This document shows, in pieces, positions 31,807 to 41,635 of a DNA stretch of 64,000 nt. The position numbers and the translations under genes were made by a program. The stretch spans positions 1 to 64,000 of the forward strand of contig NZ_NHSN01000013.1 in assembly GCF_016653405.1 (NCBI RefSeq). Direction: 5' to 3'. The stretch is from Halorhodospira halophila. Its GTDB lineage: Bacteria > Pseudomonadota > Gammaproteobacteria > Nitrococcales > Halorhodospiraceae. The notes beneath the pieces were generated by a model. It did no database searches, was not told the DNA's origin, and saw nothing but the letters and a program-made list of their open reading frames with translations. Position 1 is the first letter of the stretch, and every line of letters starts with the position of its first letter.

Positions 31807-32040
31807 GAGCACCGTCCGGGTGAGCCCCCGGGGTCGAGCGCAGGACGCGCCCCTGCGGGGTGCCCTGTGCTGCTCACCCCGGCGGGGCCGCTCGCTTAAC
31901 TCGCGGCGCTGACGCGCCGCTCGGACAAAACCTCGCTGATCCGCGCGAACCACGATGGGTTCGCGCGGATCCCCCGCCGGGGCTGCGCTGCTCGGCGCGC
32001 CCTGAAGGCTCGACCCAGGGGACCCACCCGGACGGTGTTC
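31807..32040 (-). repeat. Large inverted-repeat element, copy A (core on minus strand)
   Basis: This element fills most of the 353-bp gap 31785-32137. The outer arms 31807-31839 and 32008-32040 are inverted repeats matching at 29 of 33 positions. Between them lies a core shared with copy B in reverse orientation: hairpin 1 with 14-bp arms (31938-31951 and 31958-31971, 6-nt loop) and hairpin 2 with 7-bp arms (31903-31909 and 31914-31920, 4-nt loop). No open frame or transposase is associated. It could be a structured RNA, a mobile palindromic element or a chromosomal site. Nothing else was seen in this gap except the ribosome site of the next gene. Confidence 0.85.
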
Positions 32041-37794: not shown

Positions 37795-39828
37795 ATGGCA
37801 CGCCGCATACTCGTCACCAGCGCCCTGCCCTACGCCAACGGCCCGATCCACCTGGGCCACCTGGTGGAGTACATCCAGACCGACATCTGGGCTCGCTTTC
37901 AGCGGCTGCGCGGCAACGAATGCTACTACGTCTGCGCCGATGACGCCCACGGCACGCCGATCATGCTGAAGGCACGGGAGCGCGGCGTCGAGCCGGAGCA
38001 GCTGATCGAGGAGATGGCCGCCAGCCACCAGGCCGATTTCGCCGATTTCCTCATCGGCTTCGACCGCTACCACTCCACCCACTCGGAGGAGAATCGCCAC
38101 TTCGCCGAGCTGATCTACCAACGCCTGGAGGCCGGCGGCCACATCGAGCGCCACACCATCGAGCAGCTCTACGACCCGGGCGAGGGGATGTTCCTCCCCG
38201 ATCGCTACATCAAGGGCACCTGCCCGCGCTGCGGCGCCGCCGAGCAGTACGGCGACTCCTGCGAGGCGTGCGGGGCCACCTACACCCCCGCAGAGCTCCA
38301 GGATCCGGTCTCGGTGATCTCCGGCGAACGCCCGGAAATCCGCCAGAGCGAGCACCTGTTCTTCCGCCTGCAGGACTTCGAGGCCATGCTGCGCCAGTGG
38401 GCCAGCACCGAGCACCTGCAGCCGGAGATCATCAACAAGCTCAACGAGTGGTTCGAGGCCGGGCTGCGCGATTGGGACATCTCCCGCGACGCGCCGTACT
38501 TTGGCTTCCGCATCCCGGGCACCGAGGACAAGTACTTCTACGTCTGGCTCGATGCGCCCATCGGGTACATGGCCAGCTTCCGCCGTCTGGCCGAGGAGCG
38601 CGGCATCGACTTCGACGCCTTCTGGGATGCCGAGCGCGCCGACGAGACCGAGCTCTACCACTTCATCGGCAAGGACATCGCCTACTTCCACACCCTGTTC
38701 TGGCCGGCGATGCTCCATGGATCCGGCTACCGCACGCCGACGTCGGTCTACTGCCACGGCTTTCTGACCGTCAACGGGCAGAAGATGTCCAAGTCGCGCG
38801 GGACGTTCATCACCGCGCGCACCTACCTCGAGCACCTAGACCCGGAGTACCTGCGCTACTACACGGCGGCCAAGCTCTCGGATTCGGTGGAGGACATCGA
38901 CCTCTCCTTCGACGACTTCGTCCAGCGCGTCAACTCCGATGTGGTGGGCAAGCTGGTGAACATCGCCAGCCGCTGTGCCGGGTTCATCACCAAGCGCTTC
39001 GACGGCCGCCTGGCGCCGCGGCTCAGCGCCCCGGAGCTGTTCCGCACCTTTACCGCCAGCGCCGAGCGCATCGCCGAGCTCTACGAGCAGCGCGAGTACG
39101 CCCGCGCGGTGCGCGAGATCATGCACCTGGCCGACCAGGCGAACCAGTACATCGACGCCGAGAAGCCGTGGGAGCGGATCAAGGACCCCGAACAGGCGCA
39201 GGCGGTGCAGGAGATCTGCACCATGGGGCTGAACCTCTTCCGCATCCTGGTCCTGTACATCAAGCCGATCATGCCGCGGCTGGCCGAGGACGCCGAGGCG
39301 TTCCTGAACATCGAGCCGCTGAGCTGGGCGGACGTGCAGGCCCCGCTGCTCGATCACGGCATCAACAAGTTCAAGCCGCTGAAGACGCGGATCGACCCGC
39401 AACAAGTGGAGGCCGTCGTGGACGCATCCAAGGAGACCCTGGCATCAACCGAGGCGCAGAGCGAGGCGCCGAAGGGCCGTCTGGCCGAGGACCCCATCGA
39501 TGAGCAGATCACCATCGAGGACTTCGCCAAGCTGGATCTGCGCGTGGCGGAGGTCAAGGTGGCCGAGACGGTGGAGGGCGCCGACAAGCTGCTGCGCCTG
39601 GAGCTGGATCTCGGCGGCGAGACGCGTCAGGTCTTTGCCGGGGTGCGTCAGGCGTACAGCCCGGAGCAGTTGCTGGGCAAGCGGGTGGTCTGCGTGGCCA
39701 ACCTCAAGCCGCGCAAGATGCGCTTCGGGACGTCGGAGGGCATGGTCCTCTGCGCGGGGCCGGGCGGTGAGGATCTCTGGGTGGTCGGTCCGCAGGACGG
39801 TGCGGAGCCGGGGATGCGGGTGAAGTAA
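37795..39828 (+). CDS. metG: Methionine--tRNA ligase
   Basis: A class I synthetase for tRNA-Met. The ATP motif is PIHLGH (residues 17-22) and the KMSKS loop KMSKSRG begins at K330. Zinc-knuckle cysteines are in [19 protein letters not shown] (about 142-160). The C-terminal 100 residues are the EMAP-like tRNA-binding dimer domain ([14 protein letters not shown]). ATG 37795 starts at [16 protein letters not shown], the normal family start. The Shine-Dalgarno ccggag is very close (2-nt spacing). 677 residues. Confidence 0.96.
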
Positions 39829-39953
39829 CCCTTTCTGGCTGCGATCCGGCGGGGTTTCGGGTGTGCGTTGGTTGGGTGAGGGGTGCCGGGTGCCGCTGAG
39901 TGCGCGCTGCCTGACGGCGGCGTCCCCTGCGCTGCTCGCCCGGGCCGCGGAGA

Positions 39954-40199
39954 CCGCGTGGGCGGTTGTGGCGGTGGGGACCCGGTGGCCTTTTGAGCGT
40001 GCCGAGCAGCGCAGCCCGGAAGGGGGTTCAGCGCGAACCTCTCCTGGTTCGCGCTGAACAGCGAGGTCTTGTCCGAGCGGCGCGCTAGCGCCGCGAGTTG
40101 AGCGAGCGGCCCCGCCGAGCGAGCAGCACAGGGGACCCCGCCGCCAGGCGGGGCACGCTCATCGGCACCGGGTCCCCACCGCCGCAACCGCCCACGCGG
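39954..40199 (+). repeat. Large inverted-repeat element, copy B (core on plus strand)
   Basis: The 424-bp gap 39829-40252 between the ends of metG and the protease gene holds this element. Outer arms of 34 nt (39954-39987 and 40166-40199) are inverted repeats with one difference, which as RNA is a G-U pair. The core matches copy A at 31807-32040: hairpin 1 with 14-bp arms (40026-40039 and 40046-40059) and hairpin 2 with 7-bp arms (40077-40083 and 40088-40094). The core begins near gccgagcagcgcagcc and ends near gagcagcacagg. The outer arms of A and B have unrelated sequence yet the same layout. No gene is seen in this gap. Confidence 0.88.
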
Positions 40200-40252
40200 A
40201 CCCCGTACAAGCCCAGGCCGGCCCCGTACAACCGCCCACGCGGGGCCCCGGA

Positions 40253-41524
40253 CTACCGCCGCCGCTGCTGCTCCCGCGGCACCTCCCGGAGCTCCACCTC
40301 AAACTCCCGCTCGGCACCATCACGCAGCACCGTCAGCGTCACCGAATCCCCTGCCCGACGGGCGAAGATCAGCCGCTGCAGCTCCCGCGGCTCCGAGACC
40401 GCCTCACCGTTGACGTGCGTGATGACATCACCATCCGCCGGCATGGCGCGCCCCTGGACGCTCACCTCGAACGAAGCCCCCTGCAGGCCCGCCTCCTCGG
40501 CCGGACTGCCGGACTCCACATCGACCACCATCACCCCGCGCTCGGGGAGGTTCAGCCGCTCGCGGATCCCCTCGGGATACCCCTCCAGGCCGGCGACCAT
40601 CACCCCCAGACGAGCCCGGGAGGTCAGATCCGTGAGGCCGCCCTCCTCCATCTCGCCCAGGCTCTCCTGGAGCAGATTGCTCGGCACGGCAAAGCCCACG
40701 CCCACCGAACCGCCACGGCCGGTCAGCCCGCCGCCGCCGGGGACGATGGCCGTGTTCACGCCGATCACCTCGCCGGCGGAGTTGAGCAGCGGCCCGCCGG
40801 AGTTGCCGGGGTTGATCGCGGCGTCCGTCTGAATCATGGGGATCTCGATCTGCCCGATCCCCGGCAGGTCCCGGCCGACGCCTGAGACGATCCCCGTGGT
40901 TACCGTCGAGCTGAGCCCGAAGGGATTGCCGATGGCAATGGTCTTCTGCCCGACCAGCGCCTGATCGGAATCGGCCAGGGTCAGCGGCTCGGCGTCCTCC
41001 GGGACGGCCCCCGGATCCTCGGGCTTGAGCAGGGCCAGGTCGTAGAGGGCGTTGGCGCCGACCACCCGGGCCGGTACGGCGTCGTGCTCAGCAAAGCTGA
41101 GCTTCACCGATGCGCCCTCGCGCAGCTCCACGCCCTCCTCCTCCAGGGCGTTGCGGATGACGTGGTAGTTGGTGACGATATGGCCGTCGCTATCGATCAG
41201 GAAGCCACTGCCCGCCCCCTGGCGCCGGGGCGCCTCGCCGCGCGGACGATCGCGCTCGAAGAACTCGCGGAACTGCGGCGGGATCATCCCCTCCGGAATA
41301 CGCTCGAAGGGATCCACGCGCTCACCCCGGACCTCCACCTCGATGGCCACCACCGAAGGCCCGTAGCGCTGGAAGATCTCCACCGTATTGCGCTCGTCCG
41401 GCTGGAGGTGCTCCAGATCGTCGGCCAGCGCCGGCGTGCTCACCAGAGCGATCAGGGCCATTGCCAGCACGGCCCCCAGAACCAGCGGCGTACGTCGATG
41501 CTGCATTCCGTGTGCTACCGTCAT
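40253..41524 (-). CDS. HtrA/Deg-type periplasmic serine protease with one PDZ domain
   Basis: A trypsin-like protease acting on misfolded envelope proteins. The export signal LVLGAVLAMALIALVSTPALA covers about residues 13-33. The catalytic triad is visible: His in GHIVTNYHVI, Asp in LYDLALLKPE and Ser in INPGNSGGPLL. A single PDZ domain follows (RLGVMVAGLEG to about 423). Size and one PDZ place it between DegS- and DegQ-like proteins; no symbol is given. ATG 41524 (MTVAHGMQHRR) has ggaaag upstream, better than TTG 41554. It is divergent from the rnf operon. Confidence 0.9.
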   Translation of the reverse strand: MTVAHGMQHRRTPLVLGAVLAMALIALVSTPALADDLEHLQPDERNTVEIFQRYGPSVVAIEVEVRGERVDPFERIPEGMIPPQFREFFERDRPRGEAPRRQGAGSGFLIDSDGHIVTNYHVIRNALEEEGVELREGASVKLSFAEHDAVPARVVGANALYDLALLKPEDPGAVPEDAEPLTLADSDQALVGQKTIAIGNPFGLSSTVTTGIVSGVGRDLPGIGQIEIPMIQTDAAINPGNSGGPLLNSAGEVIGVNTAIVPGGGGLTGRGGSVGVGFAVPSNLLQESLGEMEEGGLTDLTSRARLGVMVAGLEGYPEGIRERLNLPERGVMVVDVESGSPAEEAGLQGASFEVSVQGRAMPADGDVITHVNGEAVSEPRELQRLIFARRAGDSVTLTVLRDGAEREFEVELREVPREQQRRR

Positions 41525-41635
41525 AAGGCTTTCCACCTGTGGGTTGTTCATCAAGTAGTGGACAATAAGGTTGGGGTGTTAAGTTCACCCTGTTCGTAAC
41601 GGATCAAGCCACCGATTTCCAACACGGGGATGGCG

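Follow-up and report, generated by a model that had tools for sequence, protein, structure and literature searches.

The gap downstream of metG in a stretch of Halorhodospira halophila DNA (64,000 nt of contig C13 from a 2.86-Mb draft genome, labelled G000; hereafter the window) holds a dispersed, non-coding, strongly folding intergenic element, of which this copy (copy B) is one member. A conserved core of approximately 120-165 nt is enclosed by outer arms that in this lineage measure approximately 27-56 nt and are near-perfect mirrors of each other within a locus, though their sequence varies from locus to locus. The explanation that we favor, with some reservation, is that the arms are rewritten by template switching, that the core is sometimes flipped in the process, and that the element is kept as a 3'-end hairpin. 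Comparison genomes are labelled G001 onward.

Structure of the element in the window

Copy B lies between metG, which ends at 39828, and a convergent gene on the minus strand (40253-41554) that, as read from its translation, probably encodes a DegP/DegQ-like protease. An earlier note on this DNA had described a folded element with two core hairpins in this gap, and the coordinates (Table 1) and computed folds bear this out. The 34-nt arms that it reported (39954-39987 and 40166-40199) have a single difference, a T facing a G, and the ungapped repeat extends to 40 nt, such that the 34-nt left arm is part of the longer one. RNA folding of the arms together with the core (39948-40205) gave a z-score of -11.7, and folding of the core alone gave -3.7 on the plus strand and -4.1 on the minus strand; the hairpin 2 stem was also present in the computed RNA fold. 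The same intergenic gap contains a relic of 63 nt with 81% complementarity to 40115-40177, which a second search also picked up, at 39902-39945.

Table 1. Positions of copy B, copy A, and the relic within the window
Feature	Coordinates	Strand	Remarks
Copy B, left outer arm	39948..39987	+	40 nt; inverted repeat I2, 93% complementary
Copy B, right outer arm	40166..40205	+	inverted repeat I2
Copy B, conserved core with short shared margins	39992..40165	+	covariance model R1 match, 166.5 bits
Copy B, hairpin 1	40026..40059	+	14-bp stem, 6-nt loop; two co-changing pairs relative to copy A
Copy B, hairpin 2	40077..40094	+	7-bp stem, 4-nt loop; inside motif region TGTCCGAGCG...GCGAGTT
Relic: inverted copy of core 3' end and inner right arm	39881..39943	-	left of left arm; inverted repeat I1
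Copy A, one outer arm	31807..31839	+	33 nt, 88%
Copy A, conserved core (orientation opposite to copy B)	31838..32005	-	covariance model R1 match, 174.2 bits
Copy A, other outer arm	32008..32040	+	

Comparison with copy A confirmed the paired differences that had been noticed between the two copies. Hairpin 1 is a perfect 14-nt stem in both (31938-31951 with 31958-31971 in copy A; 40026-40039 with 40046-40059 and the loop TCTCCT in copy B), and the two base pairs that differ are each changed on both sides. Hairpin 2 retains its 7-bp stem (31903-31909 with 31914-31920 in copy A; 40077-40083 with 40088-40094 in copy B), and the 4-nt loop alone differs. The outer arms of the two copies are unlike in sequence, and each pair is still complementary.

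A simple consensus scan of positions 39800-40300 yielded no promoter- or terminator-like sites. A pattern scan of the same interval for terminators (GC-rich hairpins with loops of 3-8 and a T run) returned none on either strand, compared with a shuffle mean of 0.3. Rfam 15 models at gathering score matched only two tRNAs over the window, and a search for plasmid homologs of the window copy found none.

Distribution and gene context of the family

A covariance model (R1) built from 17 copies detected 19 copies in the own genome, not just the two from which the earlier note had proposed a covariance search; a BLAST search of the same genome gave 18 core-sized matches together with shorter pieces. 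Under strict filters, R1 matched 88 places in nine of 59 genomes, the own genome included: 16 each in G006 and G009, 10 in G013, nine in G003, seven in G004, six in G010, four in G005, and one in G001. The same-genus genomes G002, G007, and G008 had no R1 match. Motifs common to the copies, as read from the alignments, were CCGAGCANCGCAG, TGTCYGAGCG...GAGTT, and CGAGNAGCGCAGGGNACC. A broader model, built from 26 copies and scoring at most eight candidates per genome, identified relatives (E <= 1e-4) in 49 of 369 Gammaproteobacteria and in 42 of 272 genera. Among the matches listed, the short-form pattern was carried by Stenotrophomonas, Xanthomonas, Luteimonas, Pseudoxanthomonas, Lysobacter, Silvimonas, Methylophaga, and Burkholderiaceae.

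No Rfam 15 family reached its gathering score over the copies tested or over 20 of the 30 loci from the broader-model search. In a loose Rfam search of six loci, only one family, a microRNA, overlapped a copy (in G010), scoring 47.1 bits against a gathering score of 168 bits; we took this as a chance match arising from the long hairpin. A literature search that included sequence strings found no description of the element, which does not by itself prove its absence in print.

Additional features accompany the core elsewhere in Gammaproteobacteria. A T-rich hairpin (TTTCTTTTGGTTACTTTTCTTTG... and its complement) often follows the core, and many copies occur as inverted pairs approximately 70-270 bp apart. 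Searched for by itself, the T-rich hairpin was present at no fewer than 40 places in several Paraburkholderia plasmid records.

In G006, 14 of the 16 copies were located within 577 kb (538-1115 kb), a concentration that none of 200,000 random placements matched in any equal arc. Forty stretches of this chromosome (2,678,452 bp) were sampled for GC skew of the plus strand. The skew was negative in 36 of them, which extend from 20 kb to 2646 kb; positive values were limited to 1-20 kb, 2646-2678 kb, and a single, largely masked stretch whose value was close to zero. The usual two-replichore change of sign did not appear, as would be the case if a single replichore took up almost all of the chromosome, and because the sampled skew hardly changes sign, the copies could not be placed relative to origin and terminus.

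The copies were mostly located between convergent genes. A codon-usage gene caller placed 10 of 16 copies in G006, 10 of 15 callable copies in G000, and four of seven in G004 in such positions; it could place 15 of the 19 G000 copies, and a few gaps over 600 nt suggest missed genes. As background, 19 sampled G006 stretches contained 37 convergent pairs among 286 neighboring gene pairs and 17 among 90 pairs with gaps of 100 or more, from which the excess in G006 had binomial p values of 5e-6 and 1.5e-4, respectively. This location suggests a shared 3'-end hairpin as the likely use of the element. With less certainty, we infer from gene positions that both genes may use it as a shared 3'-end structure that works in either orientation; the pattern scan around copy B provided no intrinsic terminator-like site in support of such a role.

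Change in arms and core at orthologous loci

Arms were analyzed in 82 of the 88 matches, leaving out six at contig ends, and were measured in 72 of these, omitting short flanks. The flank-to-flank alignment score was 21 or more in 68 of the 72 copies (range 8.5-56), whereas control flanks from other copies had mean scores of 6.4-10.8. The four low-scoring copies were G000:C12:7103 (with an N in the arm), G000:C15:1465, G006:907270, and G003:C177. High arm scores across copies occurred with orthologs and among the related copies in G013. The arms of the G013 copies resemble each other, as do some G009 arms, and arms can therefore also travel with the core. Two G010 copies that are 99% identical over 141 bp carry perfect arms of 34 and 35 nt, and these arms are unrelated past about the innermost six bases. 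This pair rules out that arms and core always move as a unit; either new arms were made once the copy had been duplicated, or conversion made the cores of two long-established copies alike. In the wider family, long arms were rare: among the 27 broader-model loci (of 30) included in the arm check, three scored 28.5, 28.5, and 16, one scored 11, and the others 6-8.5. Between the same two convergent genes, three Stenotrophomonas genomes have two cores in inverted arrangement, and the outer arms of these cores also seem, by eye, to have changed together.

Within loci, arm changes were predominantly mirrored. Aligning the inner 34 nt of the four arms in 18 ortholog pairs between species (a nineteenth, with an N in an arm, was left out) gave 120 mirrored and 49 one-sided columns, along with 384 conserved and eight other columns. 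The mirrored columns comprised 40 transitions, 60 transversions, and 20 indel columns, counts in which some indels are alignment edges, some one-sided columns are misalignments, and homology is uncertain where arms have been rewritten. Three of the 18 pairs exhibited 10-17 mirrored columns and no one-sided column.

The orientation of the core also changed. At 14 loci common to G000 and G006, identified by their flanking genes, the core was inverted relative to the neighboring genes in eight, including copies A and B, and was not inverted in six; two of the 14 calls (C12:7103 and C15:1465) were based on one flank, and the count omits the G000 copies C10:21 and C10:1018, which have tandemly duplicated flanks. 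Inverted cores were also found in one of five G000-G004 pairs and two of six G004-G006 pairs, comparisons that are not mutually independent. Three flips were the clearest. One was between G000:C25 and G004:C54, where a core with 99.4% identity lies in reversed orientation between arms that are recognizably the same. The other two, with reversed cores and largely conserved arms, were between G000:C29 and G006:2405579 and between G000:C9:86246 and G006:631818. Moreover, G000:C8:125420, G004:C98:483, and G006:538415 represent one locus with nested arms; by eye, the loops that lie between its inner and outer arms have traded places and been inverted in G000 relative to G004.

In a tree of the cores, G000-G006 pairs formed a clade at five of the 14 loci, namely four of the eight flipped pairs (A, B, C12, and C9:86246) and one of the six unflipped pairs, and four of five G000-G004 pairs formed a clade. 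This mixed tree indicates that copies also exchange sequence and that a flipped core does not make a pair any less orthologous. Because just five of 14 pairs form clades, exchange between copies, or new insertion at some loci, may explain part of the flips.

The core itself covaries beyond chance, as the earlier note had predicted. Both sides had changed in 22 of the 50 consensus pairs of alignment A1, compared with 7.8 in shuffles, and 95.9% of cells paired, compared with 31-46% when partners were slid by one to three columns; the structure was derived from A1 itself, which favors it, and the copies are related. The mirrored pairing had been taken as the mark of a selected structure throughout. 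The core covariation agrees with that reading, but the arms do not support it as stated: the inversion of the core together with the mirrored transversions and indels points to copying from arm to arm. Judged from these alignments, arm pairing is probably best explained by such copying, and not by base-by-base selection alone.

A trace of strandedness accompanies this pattern. Copying alone predicts that leftover A-C mismatches are as frequent as G-T mismatches on the sense strand of the core. The arms of 67 copies had 27 G-T and 10 A-C mismatches on this strand (25:10 with the G013 cases merged, p 0.017), and stem P2 of the wider family had 18:5 distinct cases of G-U versus A-C (p 0.011; 99 of 114 elements, 15 with stems too short being omitted), whereas stem P3 had no bias (1:2; 100 of 114 elements, 14 omitted for the same reason). 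Arms and P2 combined gave p 0.0003 in a test that was conceived late and on copies that are related, and the A1 core gave 29:7, a ratio that is biased since its structure was inferred with G-U allowed. This excess is unexpected from copying alone and thus counts against pure arm-to-arm copying; it suggests that folding of the sense strand of the core is of importance too, as RNA or as one DNA strand.

Finally, we compared loci that lack the element. At the copy A site and a third locus, the element was absent from G002, G003, G007, and G008, and no inverted repeat there exceeded background (scores of 6-10.5; 60 random stretches had a mean of 9.5 and a maximum of 14), which indicates that arms need not pre-exist. 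At the copy B site, G003 had an unrelated 20-bp hairpin (score 17.5), and G002 had another inserted sequence with a different palindrome (score 19); in the metG/degQ-like gap of G002 (contig C22), two small ORFs accompany a 19-bp palindrome around GGGGACAGACC. The idea that all arms derive from terminator hairpins already in place was rejected, given that element-free relatives had none above background at two of the three loci and that the window has no comparable hairpin with a stem over 16 nt outside the elements. G006 was discarded as an empty site for G000:C5:28212 because the site holds an apparent remnant of the element, and no clean young insertion was found from which to read a target-site duplication.

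Explanations for mirrored arms and inverted cores

Template switching between inverted repeats has been described as homogenizing the arms and inverting the spacer (PMC8604942, PMC8794818). The element resembles the repeats described there, in which quasipalindromes are corrected, in that its arms are made identical and the segment between them is inverted, and both traces were found in the ortholog pairs. Because arm homogenization and spacer inversion together are the published signature, we read the arm pairing as arm-to-arm copying. During replication, a single strand would fold into a long hairpin, and the polymerase would switch template from arm to arm and rewrite one arm from the other; this would keep the arms paired while their sequence drifts, and would occasionally turn the core round. 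Less certainly, the element would persist because a long hairpin at gene 3' ends, mostly those of convergent genes, serves both sides and works either way round. Unlike the cases described in these two papers, the spacer here is a conserved, dispersed core of 120-165 nt between arms of 27-56 nt. Published spacers are short (up to 70 bp were searched in yeast, and rRNA loops are 4-8 nt; PMC8604942, PMC8794818), and a 165-nt spacer is therefore an extension of template switching. Homologous or strand-exchange recombination between the arms, which would homogenize them and flip the core, predicts the same homogenized inverted repeats and inverted segment. The two processes leave similar traces; arms of approximately 30-50 bp are short for RecA-dependent recombination, and we regard this route as possible but unlikely. 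That natural selection preserves the whole fold, arms included, through compensatory mutations, with the element acting as an RNA in its own right or as the structured 3' part of an mRNA, appears to us similarly improbable. It would account for the covarying core, for the G-U excess in the arms and stem P2, and for the higher identity of ortholog cores (mean 93.8%, range 90.6-97.6%, in 12 G000-G006 pairs) than of flanking DNA (approximately 88%, the mean of 23 flank matches from the same pairs). It leaves unexplained the inversion of the core and the three pairs with mirrored changes and none one-sided, and neither the unbiased stem P3 nor the absence of promoter- and terminator-like sites around copy B in the simple consensus scan favors it.

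A REPIN- or MITE-like mobile element inserting into existing hairpins, such that the arms belong to the target, seems rather improbable. The dispersal of the copies, the inverted copy pairs in other genomes, the near-identical G010 cores with different arms, and the unrelated hairpin at the vacant copy B site of G003 are all in keeping with insertion, but the copy A and third loci of four relatives had no inverted repeat above background, and the window outside the elements contained no short-loop hairpin whose stem exceeded 16 nt (loops of 3-12 and at most two mismatches allowed). Moreover, neither the own genome nor G013 had a match to the one transposase family examined, PF01797 (IS200-like). 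An association with RAYT/IS200 was rejected, since PF01797 was found in 34 of 49 carriers and 181 of 320 non-carriers (p 0.12, not significant). Invertible promoters, which change by conservative site-specific recombination, have a DNA segment that is flanked by inverted repeats and found either way round. The orthologous loci display the same behavior, and an invertible switch with its own recombinase would produce it; unlike in invertible promoters, however, the arms of most loci have no sequence in common, and hence no common outer recombination site, and the copies are located mostly at gene 3' ends and not at promoters, which makes such a switch highly improbable. Finally, the core itself could be the driver, through a dedicated enzyme or a fold that stalls replication, of a self-inverting, strand-polar 3'-end structure, made of RNA or single-stranded DNA, that rewrites its own flanks. 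We consider this proposal doubtful; if true, a widespread bacterial element would make and renew its own locus-specific hairpin.

Relation to known repeats

The element is a real, widespread structured repeat for which no name was found. Its kind is ordinary; what sets it apart is that its core inverts and that its arms are copied and specific to each locus. REPs are described in PMC2817692 as short palindromes that carry a GT(A/G)G-type head and span approximately 20-40 nt. Like REP, BIME, and REPIN sequences, the element is a dispersed intergenic palindromic repeat that sometimes occurs in inverted pairs; unlike REPs and BIMEs as described in that source, its core is longer and branched, its own genome lacks a PF01797 match, and no GT(A/G)G head was seen by eye in the alignments of 17 and 26 copies, so that the identity with REP/BIME raised as a possibility in the earlier note did not hold. 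The stem-loop sequence families of PMC2267715 are likewise repeated, folding, and intergenic; no matching family was met in that paper, the main text of which does not name Halorhodospira, Xanthomonas, or Ralstonia. With respect to MITEs, the core ends pair over approximately 10 bp (helix 1) and are shared, whereas the long outer arms mostly are not, and BLAST of the own genome showed core-sized copies and fragments only. The element would be a MITE in a loose sense only.

Mirrored base-pair changes are standard evidence for a selected RNA structure. Here, much of the covariation accompanies segment inversions and looks like DNA copying, while the core covaries too and the G-U bias hints at selection on one strand. 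The family, with its many copies and orthologs, could help to separate copying from selection and to correct covariation tests, and its wider membership among Gammaproteobacteria, with no Rfam match, deserves a name.

Partial copies were also observed. A second, solitary core end lies just outside an arm of copy C10:7363 in G000 (near C10:7591-7615) and resembles the relic in the window. At G006:C1:631818-631867, a copy has shrunk to 50 nt between intact, still pairing arms, and looks deleted between direct repeats of GAGCAGCGCAG at both sides of the core.
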